DNA of 11,178 nt from a bacterium HR39. GTDB taxonomy: Bacteria; Pseudomonadota; Alphaproteobacteria; Geminicoccales; Geminicoccaceae. The stretch lies in contig BEIP01000009.1 in the NCBI GenBank assembly GCA_002898955.1, forward strand, positions 1-11,178. Reading direction: 5' to 3'. Position numbers and translations under genes: made by a program. A model generated the notes under the pieces. It saw nothing but the letters and a program-made list of their open reading frames with translations, made no database searches and was not told the DNA's origin. This document shows, piece after piece, positions 1-11,178 of this stretch; within the stretch, counting starts at the first letter, position 1; every line of letters starts with the position of its first letter.

Positions 1-480
1 GGGCGGCGTCGCCACCACCACGTGTCCCCGCTCGTCGACGACCGCGGCGCCCTCCGACCGCTGCCAGACGGCGGTGGGACGCCGCTCCCGGATTTCAACC
101 ATCAGGCGATCTGGCAGCAGACGCCGGACCTCCGCGTCATCGACCCAGGGCAGCGATTCCAGACGACGTTCGGCCTCGCCGAGATCAACCGAAAGTATAT
201 CCACCCCCTCGAGATCCGCAAGCGCCAGCCGCACCTCGCGCGGCTCCGTGCGCCGCAGGCCGCGGACCTCGATGGCGCCGACCGACAGGCCCAGGAGGCG
301 GGCGAGCGAACTGCCCTCGTGGCGGCCGGGCACCAGCGGGTCGGCACCCGGGGCGACCGCCGCACCGCCGAGCAGGGCCGGCACCACCAGGAGCGCGAGC
401 AGCCGCCGGCGGGCGGGACCCCGGCCGCCGGGGCGGGAGGGAGAGGCGGAGGGACGGGCGTTCGGCCTCACGGGTCGCAT
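1..480 (-). CDS. ftsQ: Cell division protein FtsQ, 3' end outside window
   Basis: Bitopic inner-membrane divisome protein; in the known system FtsQ joins FtsB and FtsL and controls septal synthesis by FtsW-FtsI. 160 residues are visible and the frame runs off the window at position 1. A short basic, proline- and arginine-rich cytoplasmic N-terminus (1-26) precedes one hydrophobic segment (about 27-43). The POTRA domain follows (about 68-136), with GAIEVRGLRRTEPREVRLAL, RRLESLPWVDDAEVRRLLPD and VEIRERRPTAVWQ. This is the expected FtsQ pattern. I chose ATG at 480, which has GGAG eight bases upstream and overlaps ddl by 13 bases. The GTG at 471, three codons later, would give the same GTGA overlap seen elsewhere but has no clear ribosome binding site. 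ftsA and ftsZ would be expected next. Confidence 0.92.
   Translation of the reverse strand, partial: MRPVRPNARPSASPSRPGGRGPARRRLLALLVVPALLGGAAVAPGADPLVPGRHEGSSLARLLGLSVGAIEVRGLRRTEPREVRLALADLEGVDILSVDLGEAERRLESLPWVDDAEVRRLLPDRLMVEIRERRPTAVWQRSEGAAVVDERGHVVVATPP
194..221 (-). promoter_or_regulatory. Candidate sigma70-like promoter inside ftsQ
   Basis: On the minus strand TTGCGG (216-221) is followed after 16 bases by TATACT (194-199), which matches the TATAAT box at five of six positions. It lies in a local AT-rich patch of an otherwise very GC-rich region and makes the ftsQ codons ATA and CTT, which are unusual here. It points towards the expected ftsA and ftsZ. The -35 match is weak, so this is only a candidate. 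Confidence 0.2.
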
Positions 481-1370
481 CGGGCCATCTCCACGAGGCG
501 CACCACCAGATCGCGGAAGGAGATGCCGCGGAAGGCGGCCTGTTCGGGCAGCAGCGAGGTGGGGGTCATGCCGGGCTGGGTGTTCACCTCCAGCAGCACG
601 AGGCCCTCCTCGCCGCGGCTCGGGTCCCAGCGCAGGTCCGCCCGGCTCACCCCGCGGCAGCCGAGGACGCGGTGGGCCGCGAGGGAGATCTCCAGCACGC
701 GCTCGTAGATGCGCTTCGGCAGGGGCGCGGGCAGCAGATGCCGGGAGCCGCCGGGCTCGTACTTGGCGCGCCAGTCGTAGAGGCCGCCCGAAGCCGGCAC
801 GATCTCGGTCACCGCCAGCGGTTCGTCGCCCAGCACCGCGCAGGTGAGCTCGTGGCCCGGCACGAAGCGCTCCACCAAAAGCTCCCTGCCTTCCGGCCAG
901 GTCTGCGGGTCGAGGGCGTCCCAGCTCTCCAGCAGGGTGACGCCGACACTCGAGCCCTCGTCCACGGGCTTCACCACGACGGGCGGCTCCAGCGGCCTCG
1001 TCCTCGTCATCTCCTCCACGGAGCACGTGCGCCCTTCCGCCACCGGCAGGCCCGCCGCCGCGAACAGCAGCCGGGCCGTGGGCTTGTGCATGGCGATCGC
1101 GGACGCCCGTACTCCCGAGTGGGTATACGGGATCCGCAGCAGATCGAGAAGCCCCTGAATGCGTCCGTCCTCGCCGAGGCGGCCGTGCAGGGCGTTGAAG
1201 GCGACGTCGGGCGCGAGCCGGCGCAGCACCACGTCCACGTCCCGGCCCACGTCCACCCGGCTCACGCGATATCCCGCCTCCTCCAGCGCGGCGGCACAGG
1301 CGCGGCCGGAGACCAGCGAGATCTCCCGCTCGGCCGACAGCCCGCCCATGAGCACCGCCACGTGCTTCAC
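468..1370 (-). CDS. ddl: D-alanine-D-alanine ligase (Ddl)
   Basis: Cytoplasmic ATP-grasp ligase that joins two D-alanines into the dipeptide used by MurF. 300 residues, typical. VAVLMGGLSAEREISLVSG (4-22) is the N-terminal substrate-binding motif, followed by NALHGRLGEDGRIQGLL (59-75) and YTHSGVRASAIAMHK (82-96). The ATP-grasp domain has VVVKPVDEGSSVGV (131-144). Metal-binding residues are in RADLRWD (243-249, Asp 245) and LLEVNTQPGMT (259-269, Glu 261 and Asn 263). The start is GTG at 1370, overlapping the murB stop as GTGA, with GGGAGG seven bases upstream. A longer start at 1424 is possible on paper but adds 18 residues that belong to the murB overlap and precede the conserved start. The stop at 468-470 lies inside the beginning of ftsQ. 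Confidence 0.97.
   Translation of the reverse strand: MKHVAVLMGGLSAEREISLVSGRACAAALEEAGYRVSRVDVGRDVDVVLRRLAPDVAFNALHGRLGEDGRIQGLLDLLRIPYTHSGVRASAIAMHKPTARLLFAAAGLPVAEGRTCSVEEMTRTRPLEPPVVVKPVDEGSSVGVTLLESWDALDPQTWPEGRELLVERFVPGHELTCAVLGDEPLAVTEIVPASGGLYDWRAKYEPGGSRHLLPAPLPKRIYERVLEISLAAHRVLGCRGVSRADLRWDPSRGEEGLVLLEVNTQPGMTPTSLLPEQAAFRGISFRDLVVRLVEMARCDP
489..492 (-). promoter_or_regulatory. Ribosome binding site of ftsQ
   Basis: GGAG on the minus strand, eight bases before the ATG at 480, inside the last codons of ddl. It favours ATG 480 over GTG 471 as the ftsQ start. Confidence 0.55.
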
Positions 1371-2272
1371 GCGACCGCCTCCCGCGCCGGCAAGCCGAGG
1401 CGCTCGATCTCCCACTCCAGCCACACGCCGCAGCGCTCGAACACCCGCCGGCGCACCTCCTCGCCCAGCTCCTCGAGCTCGGCGGCGCGCGCCCCGCCGA
1501 GGTTGATCAGGAAGTTGCAGTGCTTCTCCGAGACCATGGCGCGCCCGCGCACGAGCCCGCGGCAGCCGGCCCGGTCGACGAGTTCCCAGGCCTTCGCGCC
1601 CGGCGGGTTCTTGAAGGTGCTGCCGCCCGTCGCGACCTGCAGCGGCTGGCTGCGGGCGCGCGCTTCGCGGATCTCCTCCATGCGCGCGCGGATCCTGCGG
1701 GGATCGCCCGCTGCCAGGCGGAAGGCGGCCCGCACCACGATCCAGCCCGGCGGCAGCTCGCTGTGGCGATAGGAAAAGCCGAGCTCGTCGCGGGAGAGGC
1801 GGTGCAGCTCGCCCCGCGGGTCAAGGGCTTCGGCCCACAGCAGCCGGTCGGCCGTCTCGCCGCCGTAGCAGCCGGCGTTCATGCGCACCGCCCCGCCGAT
1901 GCTGCCGGGGATGCCCACCATGAACTCGAAGCCCGAAAGGCCGGCCTCGGCCGCGGCCAGCGCCACGCGGCGATCGCTCGCTCCGCCGCCCGCCACGACC
2001 ACGTCGTCTTCCACCCTCACCTCGGCGAGCGGGCCGGAAAGGCGCACCACCACGCCGTCGATGCCGCCATCGCGGACGAGAACGTTGGAGGCGAGGCCGA
2101 GCGGCAGGACGGGGAGCTCCGGGGGACGCGACCGCAGGAACTCGCGCAGGTCGTCGAGATCGGCCGGCACGAAGAGGAAGCGCGCCGGCCCGCCCACCCG
2201 CAGCCAGGTGCGGCGGGCGAGCTCCACGTCCCGTTCGATGCGCCCGCGCACGGGGGGGAGCACCTCCCTCAC
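1367..2272 (-). CDS. murB: UDP-N-acetylenolpyruvoylglucosamine reductase (MurB)
   Basis: Cytoplasmic FAD enzyme that reduces UDP-GlcNAc-enolpyruvate to UDP-MurNAc with NADPH. 301 residues, the length of the shorter (type II) MurBs. [12 protein letters not shown] (21-32) and [14 protein letters not shown] (57-70) form the FAD-binding region; [19 protein letters not shown] (116-134) is the central motif. The expected catalytic residues are present: Arg 169 in SYRHS, Ser 218 in GGSTFKNP (216-223), and Glu 288 in [19 protein letters not shown] (248-257) is typical. The start is GTG at 2272, overlapping the murC stop as GTGA, with GGAG only two bases away, so initiation is probably coupled. The frame is open upstream into murC shadow. 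GLASN replaces the common GxGSN. A MurB gene between murC and ddl is the usual alphaproteobacterial order. Confidence 0.96.
1378..1383 (-). promoter_or_regulatory. Ribosome binding site of ddl
   Basis: GGGAGG on the minus strand, seven bases before the GTG at 1370. It supports that start over the in-frame upstream start at 1424. Confidence 0.75.
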
Positions 2273-3693
2273 CGCTCCACCCCCGTCCCGCGCAGCGCCG
2301 CGAGCCGCGCCGGCAGCTCGCGCGCCCAGGCGGTGATGCTGCCGGCCCCGAGGCAGACCACCAGATCGCCGGCGCCGGCGAGGCGGTGGATCAGGGCCGG
2401 CAGCTCCTCCGGCTCCTCGATCACGTGCACCTCCCGCTGGCCGAAGGCCTCGAGGCCGCGGGCGAGCGCCCGGTGGTCGATGCCGGGGAGCGGCGCCTCG
2501 CCGGCCGGGTAGACGGGAGCCACCACCACCACGTCGGCATCGGTGCAGCAGCCGCAGAACTCCTCGAACAGCGCCGACAGGCGCGAATAGCGGTGGGGCT
2601 GGAGGACGGCGATCACCCGGCCGCGGGCGAGCTGGCGGGCGGTGGCGAGCGTCGCCCTGATCTCGGCGGGATGGTGGCCGTAGTCGTCCACCACGGTGAT
2701 GCCGTCCACGCGCCCGGTGAGGGTGAAGCGCCGCTGCACCCCGCCGAGGCCGGAAAGCGCGGCGCGCACCACCGCCGGGTCGATGCCGAGCTCGCGGGCT
2801 ATGGCGAAGGCCACGAGCGCATTCTGGACGTTGTGGCGGCCCGGAAGCGGCAGCACCACGTCCGGGATGTGCTCCTCGCGCCCGTCGCGATGGCGGACCA
2901 CCACGTCGAAGCGCTCCTTCAGGCCCTCGAGGCGCGGGGCGAGGGCGCGCACGTCGGCCTGGGCGTTGAAGCCGTAAGTGACGACCCGCCGGTTGACCAC
3001 CCTCGCGTGCAGCCGGCGCACGGTCGGGTGATCCGTGCACAGCACGGCGAAGCCGTAGAAGGGCAGGCGCTCGACGAATTCGAAGAAGGCCTCCTCGAGA
3101 CGTTCGGCGCTGCCCCAGTGGTCGAGGTGCTCGGGGTCGATGTTGGTGACCACGCCGACGGTCGCGGGCAGGCGCAGGAAGGTGCCGTCGCTCTCGTCCG
3201 CCTCCACCACCATCCACTCGCCCTCGCCGAGGCGCACGTTGCTGCCCCAGGCGTTGACGATGCCGCCGTTGACCACCGTGGGATCGAGGCCGGCCTGCTC
3301 GAACAGCGCGCCGACGATGGAGGTGGTGGTGGTCTTGCCGTGGGTGCCGGCCACCGCCACCGCCCAACGGAAGCGCATGAGCTCGCCCAGCATCTCGGCG
3401 CGGCGGATCACCGGGATGCGCCGGGCGCGCGCCGCCTCCAGCTCGGGATTGTCCGGCCGCACCGCCGAGGAGTGCACGACGAGCCCGGCCTCGCCGAGGT
3501 TCTCGGCCCGGTGGCCGATGTGGACGGTGATGCCCTTCTCGCGGAGCCTGCGCACATTGGCGTTCTCGGCCACGTCCGAGCCCTGCACCCGGTGACCGAG
3601 CTGATGCAAAAGCTCGGCGATGCCGCTCATGCCGATGCCGCCGATGCCGACGAGGTGGACGGGGCCGATGTCGACGGGAATGGCGCATCTCAC
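2269..3693 (-). CDS. murC: UDP-MurNAc:L-alanine ligase (MurC)
   Basis: Cytoplasmic ATP-dependent ligase that adds L-alanine to UDP-MurNAc, the first amino-acid step. 474 residues, usual length. The UDP-binding domain has [15 protein letters not shown] (13-27) and VQGSD (36-40). The ATPase domain has P-loop [10 protein letters not shown] (115-124), [10 protein letters not shown] (164-173), [12 protein letters not shown] (183-194) and [11 protein letters not shown] (285-295). The C-terminal domain has [10 protein letters not shown] (335-344) and LGAGSIT (448-454). The start is GTG at 3693, overlapping the murG stop as GTGA, with GGAG eight bases upstream. An ATG at 3688 is in another frame. The sequence is of the alphaproteobacterial type. 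If the murG TAG were real and unsuppressed, ribosomes would stop 279 bases before this start and coupling would be lost. Confidence 0.97.
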
Positions 3694-4790
3694 GGCGTGG
3701 GCTCCGTGGCTAGGGACAGCAGGAGATCGGCGATGTCGGCCGCCGCGCGCGGCCGGGCGAAGGCGCGGGCCCCTTCGCGCATCGCCTTGAGGCGCACGGG
3801 ATCGCCGAGCAGGGCCGAAAGACGTCCGGCCAGCACCTCGGGGTCGAAGCGGTCCTGTTCCAGCACTTCCGCCGCCCCGGCGCGGGCGAGGCGCAGGGCG
3901 TTGGCGCGCTGGTGGGCATCCGCCGCGTAGGGATAGGGGACCAGGATCGCCGGCACGCCGGCCGCCGCGAGCTACGCGACGGTGGAGGCGCCGGCGCGGG
4001 TGAGGGCGAGATCGGCGGCGCAAAGCCGCCGGTCGAGGTCGGCGAAGAAGGGCCGCACTTCGGATTCGGCCACGAGCGGGGACACGGCCGCGCGCACCCC
4101 CTCGAGCTGCTCCTCCCGCACCTGCATCCACAGGACGATGCGCCGGCGCAGCTCTTCCGGCAGGAGCGCGAGCGCCGCCGGCACCACCTCGCCGAAGATG
4201 CGCGCGCCCTGACTGCCGCCGGTCACCAGAAGCCGCAGGCGGCCATCCGTACCGCGCTCTTCCGCCGCGGCCGCGGCGAAGCCGGGACGGACGGGATTGC
4301 CGGTCACCCGCACCCGGGCCGCGAGGCGTGGGGGGACGCGTTCGGTGTCGCAGAAGGAGAGGGCGAGGATGCGGGAAAAGCGCGCAGCCAGCCGGTTCGC
4401 GCGCCCCAGCACCGCGTTCTGTTCGTGCCGAAGCAGCGGAACGCGGCCCAGCACGCAGGCGGCCAGCGCCGGCACTGCCGCATAGCCGCCGAAGAGGCCC
4501 GCCGCGGCCGGACGGGTGCGCGCGAGCACGCCCGCAGCCTCGCCGGCGCCGGCCAGCAGGCGCACGGCGGCCCGCAGGGCGTGGAGGAGTCCGCCGGAGG
4601 GGCTCGCCGCCGCCACCTCGTGGACGGTGACGCCGGGAAGCTCGGGCGGCAGATAGCGGCGACCGCGGGCGTCGGTGAGCAGCACCACGGGGCGGCCGCG
4701 GGCGCGCAGCTCGTCGATCACGGCGAGCGCGGGGAAGACGTGTCCGCCGGTGCCGCCGGCCGCCACCAGCACGGGGCGCTCTCCGCTCAT
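3690..4790 (-). CDS. murG: Lipid II-forming GlcNAc transferase MurG, interrupted by an in-frame TAG at codon 273
   Basis: Peripheral inner-membrane GT28 glycosyltransferase that adds GlcNAc from UDP-GlcNAc to lipid I, forming lipid II. ATG at 4790 overlaps the ftsW stop (ATGA), with GGAGAG just upstream; TGA at 3690-3692 overlaps the murC start. Read through, it has 366 residues, normal length. The N-domain has [14 protein letters not shown] (10-23), FGGYAAVP (100-107), [14 protein letters not shown] (121-134) and GNPVRPG (164-170). The C-domain has TGGSQGA (190-196) and TRAGASTVA (264-272). Codon 273 is TAG, and the same frame then continues with [15 protein letters not shown]. The family has Glu here, the residue known from E. 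coli MurG (E269) to bind the UDP ribose. GAG to TAG needs one base change. As written, the product would stop at 272 residues and be inactive. A sequence error is the simplest explanation; see findings. Confidence 0.93.
3972..3974 (-). other. In-frame amber codon inside murG
   Basis: The plus strand reads CTA, so the minus strand reads TAG, between GCG (Ala 272) and CTC (Leu 274) of murG. The reading frame does not shift: conserved MurG sequence runs into it and out of it in the same frame. It is the only in-frame TAG in the ten genes. The next possible restart is a GTG at 3956, which has no recognisable ribosome binding site and would yield only an 88-residue fragment of the C-terminal domain. 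Confidence 0.95.
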
Positions 4791-5896
4791 GCGCTCTCCA
4801 GCCGCGCGTCGCGCCGCAGCAGGGCCAGCAGCATGCCGGTGCCCAGCGACAGCGCGAGGAGGGACGAGCCGCCGTAGCTCACGAAGGGCAGGGTCATGCC
4901 CTTGGTGGGCAGGATGGCGAGATTGACGCCCATGTTGACGAAGGCCTGGAGGCCGAGCTGGGCGAGCAGGCCGGTGCCGGCGAGCAGCACGGTGCGGTCG
5001 TGCGCCTCCAGAAGCCGCGAGAGCGCCCGCAGCACCACGAAGGCGAAGAGCCCCAGCACCGCGAGACAGGCGAGGATGCCGAACTCCTCGGCCATGGTGG
5101 CGAAGACGAAGTCGGAGTGCGCCTCGGGCAGGTAGTACTTGACCTCGCCGGCGCCGGGGCCGCGGCCGAACAGCCCGCCGGTGGAGATGGCCCGCAGCGC
5201 CGCCTCCACCTGGAAGGGTTCGGCGGCGGGGTCGAGGAAGGCGTCGATGCGCGCGCGCACGTGGTCGAACACGGCATAGGCCCCGGCGAGTCCGGCGAGA
5301 CCGCCGCCCGCCGCCAGCACGATCCACGGCCAGGGCAGGCCGGCGACGAAGAGCTGCACGCCGAAGGCGGCGAGCACGAGGGCGCTGGTGCCGAGGTCGG
5401 GCTGCAGGACGAGCAGGCCCACGAGCAGCGCCACCGGCAGCGCCGCGGCCGGCAGGCCGGCGAGGCCTTCGCGCCGCGCCAGCAAAAAGCCGCACACCAC
5501 CGCGAGCGCCGGCTTGGCGAACTCGGCCGGCTGCAGGTTGAAGCCGCCGAAGACCAGCCAGCGCCGCGCGCCCTTGATCTCGGCGCCCACCAGCAGGGTG
5601 CAGGCGACGAGCAGCAGGGTCGCCACCAGCAGGGGCGCGCAGAGGAGGAGCACGCCGCGCGGGCTTGCCATGGAGGCGACGATCAAAAGAGCGAGCCCGA
5701 GCGGCACGAAGAGGAGGTGCTTCTCGACGAAGTGGAGCTCGGAGAAGCCCACGCGGCTCGCCACGGGCGGGCTCGCGGCGAAGGCCATGACCACGCCGAA
5801 GACCGCGAGGACGGCGATGCAGGCGAGCAGCGTGCGGTCCACCGTCCACCACCAGCGTCCGAGCAGGCTGGGATCACCGCGCGGAATCGCGCTCAC
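4787..5896 (-). CDS. ftsW: Septal peptidoglycan glycosyltransferase FtsW (SEDS family)
   Basis: Polytopic inner-membrane SEDS protein that polymerises lipid II into glycan strands at the division septum, working with the class B PBP FtsI. 369 residues, about ten membrane segments. A cytoplasmic N-terminus (GRWWWTVDR, 13-21) leads into the first segment with AASPPVA (40-46). Family motifs: [21 protein letters not shown] (109-129), LQPDLGTS (164-171), [20 protein letters not shown] (244-263), whose Asp 262 matches the catalytic Asp of the family, and PFVSYGGSS (337-345). The start is GTG at 5896, overlapping the murD stop as GTGA, with a full GGAGGT six bases upstream. The frame stays open far upstream, but that part is murD shadow. 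The stop overlaps the murG ATG as ATGA. QPAE replaces the more usual QPSE, a minor change. Confidence 0.96.
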
Positions 5897-7266
5897 GAGA
5901 CCACCTCCGTTCCGAGAGCGGCGACGAGTGCGACGAACACGCGCCCGCGGTGGGCGTAGTCGGTGAACTGGTCGAAGGAGGCGCAGGCCGGGGCGAGCAG
6001 CACCACCGGATCGGGCACGGGATCGGCGGCGGCCGCCGCTGCCGCTTCGCGCACCGCCACATCCAGCGTGCCGCACATCCGCACCGGCACGAGGTCGCGG
6101 AAGGTTTCGGCCAGCTCGGGCGCCGCCTCGCCGATGGCGTAGAGCGTCCGGATGCGCGGGGCGAAGGCGCGCAGTGTGCCGAAGCCGCCGGGCTTGGGCC
6201 GGCCGCCGGCGATCCAGTGGACGTGCTCGAAGCAGGCGAGGCTGCGCGCGGCCGAATCGGGATTGGTGGCCTTGCTGTCGTCGACGAAGATCACGCGGCC
6301 GATGCGGGCGATCTCGCGCATGCGGTGCGGCAGGCCGGGGAAGGTGGGAAGCGCCGCCGCGAGGGTGTCGGGATCCACCCCGAGACCCACGGCGGCGGCC
6401 GCGGCGAGGGCGGCGTTCTGGTGGTTGTGGGCGCCGCGCAGGGACCGGAGATGGCGCAGGTCGATTCCACCCGCCGGTCCCTGCGGCAGATGCAGCACGC
6501 CCTCCACCACCCGCACATCGGCCGGTGCGCCCGTCACCGACACCCGCACCACCCGCAGGCCGCGCCGGCGCAGCAGGGCGGCGAGGCCGGCGGAGTGCGG
6601 ATCGTCGACCCCGATCACGGCGCGGGTGTGGGGGCCGGCGTCGGCGAACAGCCGCAGCTTCGCCTCGAAATAGGCCTCCTCGCTGCCGTGGCGGTCGAGG
6701 TGGTCGGGCGCGAAGTTGGTCCACACCGCGACCTGCGGATGCAGACCCCTGCACAGCTCGAGCTGGAAACTGGAGAGCTCCGCGACCGCCACCGCCCCGG
6801 GGGGAAGCCGCGCGGCGAAGACCGGTGTGCCGATGTTGCCCACGGCCGCCGCCGGCCGGCCCGCCGCCTGCAGCAGATGGGCGATCAGCGCGGTGGTGGT
6901 GGACTTGCCGTTGGTCCCCGTCACCCCGACGAGGGGGCGGACCGGGTCGAGATCGCGCCAGAGCTGGACGTCGACGGTGACCGGCACGCCGGCTCCGCGC
7001 GCGGCGGCGATCACCGGATGCACCCGCACGCCGCCGGCCGGCACGCCGGGACTCGCGAGCAGCAGATCGAGGCGGGCCGCGGCGTCCGCCTCCTCCGCCA
7101 CGGTGAAGCCCGCCGCGCGGGCCGCCTCCCGCTTCTCCGGCAGGTCGTCGAACACCACCACCTGCGCACCGGCCGCGGCGAGGAAGGTCGCGGCCGCCTC
7201 GCCGCTCCTGGCGAAGCCGAGGATGCCGACACGGCGGAAGGGAAGGGTAAGCGGCAGCGGATCCAT
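5893..7266 (-). CDS. murD: UDP-MurNAc-L-alanine:D-glutamate ligase (MurD)
   Basis: Cytoplasmic ATP-dependent ligase that adds D-glutamate, the second stem-peptide residue. 457 residues, typical length. The N-terminal Rossmann-like UDP-binding domain has VGILGFARSGEAA (13-25). The central ATPase domain has P-loop VTGTNGKSTT (115-124, Lys 121), AELSSFQLE (162-170), NFAPDHLDRHG (184-194) and FEAKLRLF with the expected carbamylated Lys 203. GAHNHQNAALA (278-288) and VDDSKATNPDS (328-338), which includes the KxTN motif, mark the approach to and entry into the C-terminal domain. The start is ATG at 7266, seven bases after the mraY stop. I see no clear Shine-Dalgarno motif there, so translation probably depends on coupling to mraY. 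The stop overlaps the ftsW start as GTGA. Confidence 0.97.
   Translation of the reverse strand: MDPLPLTLPFRRVGILGFARSGEAAATFLAAAGAQVVVFDDLPEKREAARAAGFTVAEEADAAARLDLLLASPGVPAGGVRVHPVIAAARGAGVPVTVDVQLWRDLDPVRPLVGVTGTNGKSTTTALIAHLLQAAGRPAAAVGNIGTPVFAARLPPGAVAVAELSSFQLELCRGLHPQVAVWTNFAPDHLDRHGSEEAYFEAKLRLFADAGPHTRAVIGVDDPHSAGLAALLRRRGLRVVRVSVTGAPADVRVVEGVLHLPQGPAGGIDLRHLRSLRGAHNHQNAALAAAAAVGLGVDPDTLAAALPTFPGLPHRMREIARIGRVIFVDDSKATNPDSAARSLACFEHVHWIAGGRPKPGGFGTLRAFAPRIRTLYAIGEAAPELAETFRDLVPVRMCGTLDVAVREAAAAAAADPVPDPVVLLAPACASFDQFTDYAHRGRVFVALVAALGTEVVS
5903..5908 (-). promoter_or_regulatory. Ribosome binding site of ftsW
   Basis: GGAGGT on the minus strand, six bases before the GTG at 5896 and inside the end of murD. 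This is the strongest Shine-Dalgarno match in the window, and it fixes the ftsW start in a frame that is open much further upstream. Confidence 0.8.
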
Positions 7267-7273
7267 GGGACGT

Positions 7274-8407
7274 TCAGCGCAGCTTGAGGGTAGAGAGGCC
7301 GAAGAGCGCCAGCACAGCGGCGATGATCCAGAAGCGGATGACGATGGTCTCCTCCCGCCAGCCCTTCTTCTCGAAGTGGTGGTGGAGCGGGGCCATGCGG
7401 AAGACGCGCTTCCCGGTGAGCCTGAAGGAGGCGACCTGCACGATCACCGAGAGCGCCTCCAGCACGAACAGTCCGCCCACCATGGCCAGCACCAGCTCGT
7501 GCTTGGCGGCCACCGCCACGGCCCCGAGCGCGCCGCCGGTAGCGAGCGAGCCGGTATCGCCCATGAACACGGCGGCCGGCGGGGCGTTGTACCAGAGAAA
7601 GCCCATCATCGCCCCCACCATGGCGCCGCAGAACACCGCGAGCTCGCCGGTGCCCGGCACGTGGGGGATGCCGAGATAGCGGGCGAAGACGGCGTTGCCG
7701 GCGAGATAGGCCACCAGCGCGAAGGAGCCGGCGGCGATGCCCACGGGCACGCTCGCCAGCCCGTCGAGGCCGTCGGTGAGGTTCACGGCGTTGGCCGCAC
7801 CCACGATCACGAAGGCGCCGAACAGCGGGAAGAGCGGGCCCAGCGGGATGAGCACGTCCTTGAAGAAGGGCACGGTCAGCGAGGTGCCGAGCGGATCCGG
7901 CAGGAGCCGGCCGAGGATCCAGGCGGCCACGATCGCCACCAGACACTCGACGCCGAACTTGAGCCGGCCGGGGATGCCCTCGAAACGGTAGTCGTAGTCC
8001 TGCGGACGGCGCCGCAGCAGCTTGGCGAGATCGTCGGCGAGACCGACGAGACCGAAGACCAGGGTGACGGCCAGCACCACCCACACGAAGGGATTGCGCA
8101 GGTCCACCCACAGCAGGGTGGATGTGACGAGGGTGGCGAGCACCAGCAGCCCGCCCATGGTGGGGGTGTAGCGCTTGAGGAGCGCGCGCGGATCGGCCTC
8201 GCCGGCCAGCGCCGCGAGGGTGGCGGGATCGGGCGGATGGGCGGAGCCGTTCTGCATCCAGCGCAGCCAGCGGATGAGCGGCGGGCCGAAGACGAAGCTC
8301 AGGAAGAAGGCCGTCATCACCGCTCCGCCGGTGCGGAAGGTGAGGTAGCGGAAGACGTTGAAGGGAAAGAACCAGTCGGAGAGGGGAACCAGCAGATGGT
8401 AGAGCAC
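7274..8407 (-). CDS. mraY: Phospho-MurNAc-pentapeptide transferase (MraY)
   Basis: Integral inner-membrane enzyme that moves phospho-MurNAc-pentapeptide from UDP to undecaprenyl phosphate, giving lipid I. 377 residues with about ten hydrophobic segments. [13 protein letters not shown] (16-28) is the family N-terminus. The active-site features are the Mg-binding Asp pair DD at 125-126, [12 protein letters not shown] (206-217), MGDTGS (282-287) and [11 protein letters not shown] (340-350). The start is GTG at 8407, giving [11 protein letters not shown], matching the usual MLYxLL opening, with GGAGG ten bases upstream. It differs from MraYs I know in the first cytoplasmic loop (about 51-82): the usual QPIRxDGPxxHxxKxGTPTMGG is replaced by a longer, unlike sequence ending KRYTPTMGG, and DDY is DDL. 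The frame and codon use look normal throughout. Five bases follow murF and seven precede murD. Confidence 0.96.
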
Positions 8408-8412
8408 GGACT

Positions 8413-9786
8413 TCAGTCCTCCCCCGCACCGTAGCGGGTCCGCAGACGCTCCACCAGCGCCACGAGCCCGCAGGCATGCGAACCCTTGACCAGCACCACG
8501 TCCCCCTCGCGCAGTTCCGCTTCCAGCACGCCCTCCAGCTCCGCGGCCGAGTCCGCGTGCGGCCCGAGGACGGCGGGATCGAGCCGCGCGCGCAGGTGGT
8601 GCATGTCGTCGCCGACGGTGAACACTCGGGCGATTGCCGCCTGCCGCACCGGCTCCGCCAGGGCGGCGTGGAGCTCCGGCGCGTGGCGGCCGAGTTCCGC
8701 CATCGCTCCCAGCACCGCCAGCCTGCGCCGGCCGGGGATCAGGGCGAGCAGCTCCAGCGCCGCCCGCATGGAGGCCGGGTTGGCGTTGTAGGCCTCGTCG
8801 AGGAGCAGGCAACGGCCGGCAGGCATGGCGAGATGCAGCCGCCGGCCCCGGCCGGGAGGCGGGCGCAGCCCGGCGAGCCCCGCCGCGGCTTCGCGCACGT
8901 CCACGCCCAGCGCGCAGCAGACGGCGAGGACGGCCAGCGCATTGTGCACCCAGTGGCGGCCGGCGATGGCGATGCGGGCCTCCACCACGCCCTGCGGCGT
9001 GTGCGCACGCAGCCGGCTGCCGCGGTGATCGGACTCGACGGAAAGCGCCCGCACCTCGCCCGCGTCGATGCCGAAGCGCAGCACGTCGGCCCCTGCCGCC
9101 CGCGCGCGGGATTCCAGCAGCGCGGCGTGCGGGCTCGTGGCCGGCACCACCGCCACCTCGGGGCCGTGGGCGAAGATCTCGGCCTTGGCTTCGGCGATGC
9201 CCCGCTCGTCGGCGAAGTGGCCGATGTGCGCCGCCGCCACCCAGGTGACCAGCGCCACCTGCGGGCGGGCGAGGGCGGCGAGCTCCGCGAGCTCGCCGGC
9301 GTGGTTCATCCCCATCTCGAGCACGGCGAAGTCGGCCTCGCGCGGCAGGCGCGCGAGGGTGAGGGGCACGCCGATGTGGTTGTTGTGGGAGGCGAGGCTC
9401 GCGTGGACCCGGCCGAAGCGGGCGAGGAGCCGTGCGAGCGCCTCCTTGGTGCCGGTCTTGCCGACGCTGCCGGTGATCCCGATGCGCACCGCCCGCGAGC
9501 GGTCGCGGGCCGCGACGGCGAGGGCGCGCAGCGCCCCGAGGGTGTCGGGGACGCGAACGCACGGTCCCGGCGCCCCGACATCGCGCGCCACCAGTGCCGC
9601 CGCGGCGCCGCGGGCGAAGGCGTCGGCCACGAAGGCGTGGCCGTCGTGGCGCGATCCGGGAAGGGCGACGAACAGCGCCCCGGGCGCGAGGTTGCGGCTG
9701 TCGATGGAGACGTCCGACGCCTCCCAGCCGCCGGGACCACGGCCGCCGGCCGCGGCCAGCACCTCCTCCGCCCGCCACAGGCTCAC
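8413..9786 (-). CDS. murF: UDP-MurNAc-tripeptide:D-alanyl-D-alanine ligase (MurF)
   Basis: Cytoplasmic ATP-dependent ligase that adds the D-Ala-D-Ala dipeptide (made by Ddl) to UDP-MurNAc-tripeptide. 457 residues, normal for the family. The N-terminal domain has [16 protein letters not shown] (29-44). The ATPase domain has P-loop [11 protein letters not shown] (106-116), [12 protein letters not shown] (135-146), EMGMNHAGE (157-165) and the AKAEIF segment (200-205). The C-terminal domain has [11 protein letters not shown] (330-340) and VLVKGS (431-436). The start is GTG at 9786, overlapping the murE stop as GTGA, with a GGAGG ribosome binding site seven bases upstream. One difference from the sequences I know is LGAMAELG (359-366), where LGDMxELG is common; I do not think this alters function. 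The stop TGA lies five bases before the mraY start. Confidence 0.97.
8418..8422 (-). promoter_or_regulatory. Ribosome binding site of mraY
   Basis: GGAGG on the minus strand, ten bases before the GTG at 8407, within the last codons of murF. It decides the mraY start, since no ATG lies nearby in frame. Confidence 0.7.
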
Positions 9787-11178
9787 GGCGCGGCCTCCGC
9801 TCCGAGGGCGAGGCCGCGTGCCACCTCGCGGTCGTCGAAGGGCAGCACGCGGTCCTTCACGATCTGACCCCGCTCGTGGCCCTTGCCCGCCACCAGCACC
9901 ACGTCCCCCGGTCCGAGCCCGGCCCGGTGCAGGGCGAAGGCGATGGCCTCGCGCCGATCGCCGATCTCCACGGCGCGCGGCCCCGCTCCGACGAGCACGG
10001 CGCGGCGGATGGCGGCGGGATCCTCGCTGCGCGGATTGTCGTCGGTGACGATCACGATATCGGCGAGGCGGCCCGCCACCTCCCCCATGAGCGGCCGCTT
10101 GCCCGGATCCCGATCGCCGCCGCAGCCGAACACCACGGCGAGACGACCCCGCGGCACGTGGGCGCGCACCGCCCGCAGCGCCGTCTCCAGCGCATCGGGC
10201 GTGTGGGCGTAGTCCACCACCACCCGCACGCCGCGGGCCGTCTCGGCGACGGGCTCCATGCGGCCGGGGACGGGGCGCACGCGTGCGGCCGCCTCCAATA
10301 GCTCCGCCGCCGGCACCTCCGGTTCGACCGCCCGCACCAGCCCGAGCGCGGCGGCGAGATTGGCGGCCTGGAAGGGGCCGAAGAGGGGAAGTGGGAGGCG
10401 CCGCTTCGTACCGTCCAGTTCCAGTTCCACTGCGAGGCCGTCCGCCATGGGCTCGACCGCATGGATGCGGATGGCGACGTCACCGGCACCGTAACGCAGC
10501 ACCCGCACCCGCCGGCCGGCCAGCAGGACGGCGAGGCGGTCCGCCCAGGGATCGCCGGCCGGCAGCACCGCACCGCCGCCGTCTTCGAGCAGGTCGGTGA
10601 ACAGCCGCGCCTTGGCGGCGAAGTAGCGCTCCATGTCGCCGTGATAGTCGAGGTGGTCGCGGCCGAGCTGGGTGAAGGCGGCCGCCGCGATCCGCAGGCC
10701 GTCGAGCCGGCGCTGGTCGAGCCCGTGGCTCGAGGCCTCGAGGGCGAGGCGGTCGACGCCGGCACCGGCAAGCGCGGAGAGGGCCCGGTGCAGCGCGGCA
10801 GGATCGGGGGTGGTGAGGGAGGACAGCGCGACCCCGGGATCCGGCTCGACGCCGAGGGTTCCGACATAGCCCGCCGGCCGGCCCAGCGCCTGCCAGAGGT
10901 CGCGGACGAAGCAGGCGGTGGAGGTCTTGCCGTTGGTCCCGGTGACGGCCACCACCCGTCCGGGAGCGGGTGCGAAGAAACGGGCACACAGGCGCGCGAA
11001 GGCGCGGCGCGGATCGTCCGCGACGAGCAGGGCGGCGCGGCCGGCGAAGGCGCGGATGCGGGAGTCTCCCAGAAGCGCCACGGCGCCGCGGGCCAGCGCA
11101 TCCTCCGCGAAGGCGAGGCCGTCGGTGCGGGTGCCGGGTAGCGCCGCGAACAGCGCTCCGGGGCGCACCGCGCGGCTG
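9783..11178 (-). CDS. murE: UDP-MurNAc-L-Ala-D-Glu:meso-diaminopimelate ligase (MurE), 5' end outside window
   Basis: Cytoplasmic ATP-dependent Mur ligase that adds the third residue of the peptidoglycan stem peptide. The frame is open to the window edge, and the first complete codons read [15 protein letters not shown], the usual N-terminal MurE motif, so the true start lies beyond 11178 and a few tens of residues are missing; the GTG at 11168 is internal. Numbering from the first complete codon, 464 residues are visible: P-loop GTNGKT with Lys about 84, the ASSHGL motif about 149, YFAAKARLF with the expected carbamylated Lys about 189, GCGGDRD about 352, DNPR at about 380-383 (10029-10040), and GKGHE about 432. 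DNPR is the known specificity motif for meso-DAP rather than lysine. The stop TGA overlaps the murF start as GTGA. All key residues are present. First visible gene of the operon. Confidence 0.97.
9794..9798 (-). promoter_or_regulatory. Ribosome binding site of murF
   Basis: GGAGG on the minus strand, seven bases before the GTG at 9786. It lies inside the end of murE and supports the overlapping GTG start of murF. Confidence 0.75.

Follow-up and report, generated by a model that had tools for sequence, protein, structure and literature searches.

The murG gene of the metagenome bin G000, a Geminicoccaceae-like alphaproteobacterium, is interrupted in frame by an amber codon at the column of a glutamate that is present in every relative examined. 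The bin is thinly assembled and carries at least ten TAGs in frame within genes, and the one in murG most probably reflects a consensus base that is wrong or belongs to a minority variant. A wrong base is the reading that we favor from sequence comparison; a draft-sequence error is likeliest because several other genes in the draft are interrupted likewise, and it ranks ahead of a stop-reading tRNA, which is less likely.

An amber codon in the murG frame

The window, i.e. the whole stretch of 11,178 nucleotides that was analyzed, is the entire contig C9 of G000. The bin consists of 1,992,583 bases in 396 contigs and is 74.3% complete, with 1.4% contamination. The window holds the following features:

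468..11177, minus strand: dcw cluster (division and cell wall), compared with the dcw loci of relatives
2269..3693, minus strand: murC-like frame, compared with dcw loci; its GTG start at 3693 overlaps the murG stop (GTGA)
3690..4790, minus strand: murG, 366 codons plus a TGA stop (3692-3690), interrupted at codon 273
3972..3974, minus strand: TAG in the murG frame, at the column of Escherichia coli MurG E269
3693..3971, minus strand: part of murG after the TAG, 93 codons, open, frame unchanged

We take the order of the dcw cluster to be murE-murF-mraY-murD-ftsW-murG-murC-murB-ddl, and the frame at 2269..3693 is presumably murC, judged by its family. The initial annotation had described an amber codon at codon 273 of a 366-codon murG, with MurG sequence in frame on either side. 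This observation is correct, and the distance of 279 bases that it gave from the TAG to murC agrees with the GTG at 3693. In-frame stops are absent from the remaining eight dcw frames.

The GT28 C-terminal domain expected of MurG, the GT28 lipid II synthase, scores above its cut-off, and the match to PF04101 runs across the TAG when the codon is read as X (110.7 bits, cut-off 22). At the UDP-GlcNAc site, the frame has TAG in place of the glutamate (E269 in E. coli). The protein collection holds the truncated 272-residue MurG as an entry of its own (P0001; window positions 3975-4790), whose cluster of three members is known from one contig.

The glutamate at the TAG column is conserved

Three solved MurG sequences align a glutamate to the TAG column. 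Counted along the alignment with 1f0k (E. coli MurG), this column is chain residue 269, which bears out the placement at E269 in the initial annotation. The accessible part of a modeling paper counts GLU269 among the residues that matter significantly for UDP-GlcNAc binding, and the ribose contact that the initial annotation had claimed for this residue was not found in that part (PMC10966019).

The alignment of murG from relatives, which the initial annotation had proposed as a check, has glutamate throughout. It is encoded in 109 of 109 relative loci, some organisms being counted twice (GAG in 58, GAA in 51), and is present in 119 of 119 relative proteins among the best 120 listed, the remaining one being the window's own; the two sets share organisms. 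Of 60 genomes searched, G000 included, 59 have a murG match, and only that of the window has an internal stop. No near-identical assembly of the same species was found, the next MurG being 63% identical.

Among the murG matches listed in a survey that covered 385 genomes of the class, one other (G061:C96:498-1565) contains a single TGA; its genome is 63% complete.

In-frame stops elsewhere in the bin

The search for stops with same-frame coding on both sides covered 121 contigs with 956,762 bases, 48% of the bin. A stricter scan returned 63 such stops (18 TAG, 41 TGA, and 4 TAA); a looser first scan had given ten further G000 candidates (8 TGA and 2 TAG) that the stricter scan dropped. For all 63 and the ten looser candidates, Pfam was searched with the stop translated as X. 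In 9 of the 18 TAG candidates (9 of 20 with those of the looser scan), a domain scoring above its cut-off extends across the stop, whereas none spans any of the 49 TGA or 4 TAA candidates of both scans, nor any of the ten looser-scan candidates. The lack of a spanning domain does not prove a gene end, and some TGA candidates matched a family on one side or on neither. Besides murG, the affected genes are the following:

pepN, L136:14456, in-frame TAG spanned by a Pfam domain
class I/II aminotransferase, L150:86, in-frame TAG spanned by a Pfam domain
rpoH, L150:3794, in-frame TAG spanned by a Pfam domain
moaE, L150:8642, in-frame TAG spanned by a Pfam domain
molybdopterin oxidoreductase, L179:1365, in-frame TAG spanned by a Pfam domain
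phoD, L181:2885, in-frame TAG spanned by a Pfam domain
3-hydroxyisobutyrate-dehydrogenase-like gene, L193:2981, in-frame TAG spanned by a Pfam domain
rsmA, L274:6282, in-frame TAG spanned by a Pfam domain
surA, L274:5234, tenth in-frame TAG, with a same-genus relative aligned over the stop

surA is counted as the tenth because the same-genus relative aligns across its stop. The ten in-frame TAGs, murG included, correspond to about one per 100 kb read; all come from the first 717 kb, and none was confirmed in the additional 240 kb of smaller contigs. Four same-frame TAG candidates, each followed closely by a start codon, simply terminate a gene (L140:7746, L143:7215, L272:676, and L273:4337) and were left out of the ten, as were four ambiguous TAG candidates at L136:2137, L148:7963, L267:1634, and L372:5538.

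Three of the in-frame TAGs (aminotransferase, rpoH, and moaE) lie on the 10 kb of L150 (G000:C16), where rpoH is 96% identical to the rpoH of the same-genus genome G002. In phoD (L181, on G000:C47), the frame apparently changes ∼150 bases after the TAG (2885 to about 3040); the continuation in another frame was recognized by eye. Two matches to a single protein of a relative are separated near position 6500 of L144 (G000:C10) by what looks like a frameshift.

Two further approaches gave little. A coding-frame Viterbi scan for frameshifts proved unreliable, marking antisense frames as coding, and we disregarded its counts. In protein-versus-DNA scans among the genomes of the genus, wrong-frame ORFs produced numerous spurious in-frame stops (TAG, TGA, and TAA alike), both in G000 and in its sisters; we retained from them the oxidoreductase, the 3-hydroxyisobutyrate-dehydrogenase-like gene, and rsmA only, all three of which are spanned by a Pfam domain. 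In 826 near-invariant columns (nine window genes and four others), we observed seven missense differences that natural divergence can explain, a comparison that had no power because only about one error was expected by a rough estimate.

In-frame TAGs in same-genus genomes

The same-genus genomes were scanned over 152 kb (G001), 200 kb (G002), and 329 kb (G003). Within these 681 kb, one of six TAG candidates falls within a domain, so that ten cases in 957 kb of G000 compare with one in 681 kb (P 0.024). That single sister case is an in-frame TAG in a histone-deacetylase-like gene (L207, G003:C2, position 7256). The stricter scan gave three TAGs in G001, none in G002, and three in G003 (329 kb), and the looser scan gave one in G002 and seven in G003 (144 kb); G001 was covered by the stricter scan only. 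Sister candidates of the stricter scan were assessed by Pfam for the six TAGs and one TAA and by eye only for 32 TGAs. G000 was scanned with the criteria used for the sisters and with slightly looser ones, and all ten cases are within the sister-criteria list.

A probable wrong or minority consensus base

An error or a minority variant had been the first hypothesis of the initial annotation; it stands as the best supported reading, favored rather than demonstrated. The lesions are spread over unrelated genes and unevenly between contigs, with three on contig C16 and two on C80. In 100,000 random placements with contigs weighted by length, some contig with three or more lesions occurred with P 0.011 and as many same-contig pairs with P 0.002. 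Such clustering is the pattern that local poor coverage would give, the poor coverage itself being suggested by the fragmentation of the bin. Candidate lesions of other types are the apparent frameshift in phoD and the frameshift-like place in L144; in-domain TGA or TAA stops were not found.

The residues of relatives at the TAG positions, compared for nine of the ten genes (all but phoD), are mixed. Besides the glutamate in murG, relatives have Glu in moaE (13 of 13), Gln in rpoH (12 of 12), and Glu in the aminotransferase (14 of 16), whereas pepN has Gln in 6 and Glu in 6 of 15. The oxidoreductase has Glu, Asp, and Glu, the 3-hydroxyisobutyrate-dehydrogenase-like gene Ala and Glu, surA Lys, and rsmA Pro. 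These mixed residues, the clustering, the apparent phoD frameshift, the fragmented bin, the single such TAG in 681 kb of same-genus genomes, and the fact that invariant residues are affected all argue for an error.

Against an error stands the observation that ten of ten stops are TAG. With the codon usage of this genome, random single-base errors lead to TAG 62–66% of the time, and ten of ten would arise by chance with P 0.009–0.016 (five error spectra). The pattern is suggestive, although noticed post hoc; the failure of any single residue to suit the invariant Glu and Gln sites weighs more with us. A literature search on base errors in metagenome bins returned nothing to the point.

The only murG of the living cell is most likely free of the TAG and would encode glutamate at the site, like every relative examined. 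Translation of murG would then run straight through to the murC start. The ten or more TAGs interrupt genes that have an open frame on either side. If the murG TAG is an error, consensus stops in poor bins feed truncated essential proteins into databases, such as the 272-residue MurG (P0001).

A possible natural amber suppressor

A natural amber suppressor would account for the restriction to TAG. Here, a tRNA with a CUA anticodon, encoded outside the recovered 74% of the genome, would read part of the UAGs, which would let TAG mutations survive at sense codons, and RF1 would still terminate other genes at TAG. We consider this unlikely, although TAG alone is affected: it accounts for each of the ten in-frame stops, and the 53 TGA and TAA candidates include none within a domain. 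Several of the affected genes, such as murG and rpoH, are normally needed. A tRNA with a CUA anticodon, which the initial annotation had named as an alternative and as something to look for, is absent among the 22 tRNAs found; we keep suppression as a candidate because the bin, 74% complete, is without many of the expected tRNAs.

The use of TAG as a terminator bears on the same question. TAG ends 44 of 641 clear genes in G000, a count from which 14 in-frame candidates were left out, and 59 of 429 in the three pooled sisters, i.e. TAG terminators are rarer in G000 (Fisher P 0.0003). The shares are 6.9% in G000, 21.6% in G001, 10.7% in G002, and 12.4% in G003, genomes that differ in GC content. 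Since the difference is confounded by GC, we merely name it as a point for suppression; compared with G002 alone, the sister of like GC (15 of 140), it is not significant (P 0.16).

A single tRNA, however, could not restore both the invariant Glu of murG and moaE and the invariant Gln of rpoH. The clustering of the TAG sites on contigs and the apparent frameshift in phoD also speak against suppression, and a literature search on natural suppressors returned nothing to the point. The chance is accordingly small that an uncultured Geminicoccaceae-like lineage uses UAG both as an RF1 stop and as a codon read through in murG, rpoH, moaE, rsmA, and others. Were it so, the output of cell-wall and heat-shock genes would depend on suppression, and the lineage, a GC-rich bacterium whose UAG has two meanings, would be a natural ambiguous-code intermediate in which the ambiguous-intermediate model of code change could be put to the test in nature.

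A tolerated mutation or a reassigned codon as improbable readings

The TAG might also be a real nonsense mutation of murG, tolerated by means of another enzyme or a second murG, or carried by dying or wall-less cells. The bin is incomplete and a second copy may be missing from it, and the MurG-like enzyme MglA can take the place of MurG in Kitasatospora and Streptomyces, according to PMC8092295. But the bin, at 74% completeness, yields no second murG of the kind considered in the initial annotation, its only PF04101 match being the window's own. Nine other genes, including rpoH and rsmA, are affected as well, whereas the other eight dcw frames are open, and we regard a tolerated mutation as decidedly improbable.

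Reassignment of TAG to an amino acid throughout the genome, another alternative of the initial annotation, would explain in-frame TAGs in ten genes but is barely credible, because RF1 is present (TIGR00019, prfA, over the cut-off on contig C104, no internal stop), TAG still ends the 44 clear genes and four candidates are plain gene ends, no one amino acid suits all TAG positions compared (phoD aside), and the 22 tRNAs include none that reads TAG; we therefore hold that TAG is not recoded. Known bacterial reassignments all concern UGA, as stated in the introduction of PMC8629427.

Comparison with known systems

The lesions of G000 can be compared with three known situations. In thinly covered metagenome bins, base errors and minority variants occur. 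G000 resembles these in its scattered in-frame lesions with frames open on both sides, on few contigs, and in the apparent frameshift in one gene; the stop in the G061 murG likewise belongs to a genome of low completeness. It differs in that ten of ten lesions are TAG.

Natural amber suppressor strains (supE-like) have TAG within genes and keep RF1 and TAG terminators. G000 likewise has TAG inside genes, with RF1 and TAG terminators remaining, but no CUA tRNA was found here and no single residue suits all conserved sites.

The UGA-recoded Mycoplasmatales, Absconditabacteria, and Gracilibacteria, as described in PMC8629427, share with G000 a stop codon in conserved genes. In contrast to these, G000 retains RF1 and continues to terminate genes at TAG, the codon concerned here; TAGs occur in frame about once per 100 kb read, and the residues at these positions are mixed. 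The same paper adds five reassignments, of arginine codons, and ascribes some in-frame-stop signals in its own screens to pseudogenes (in yeasts) or contamination (PMC8629427).
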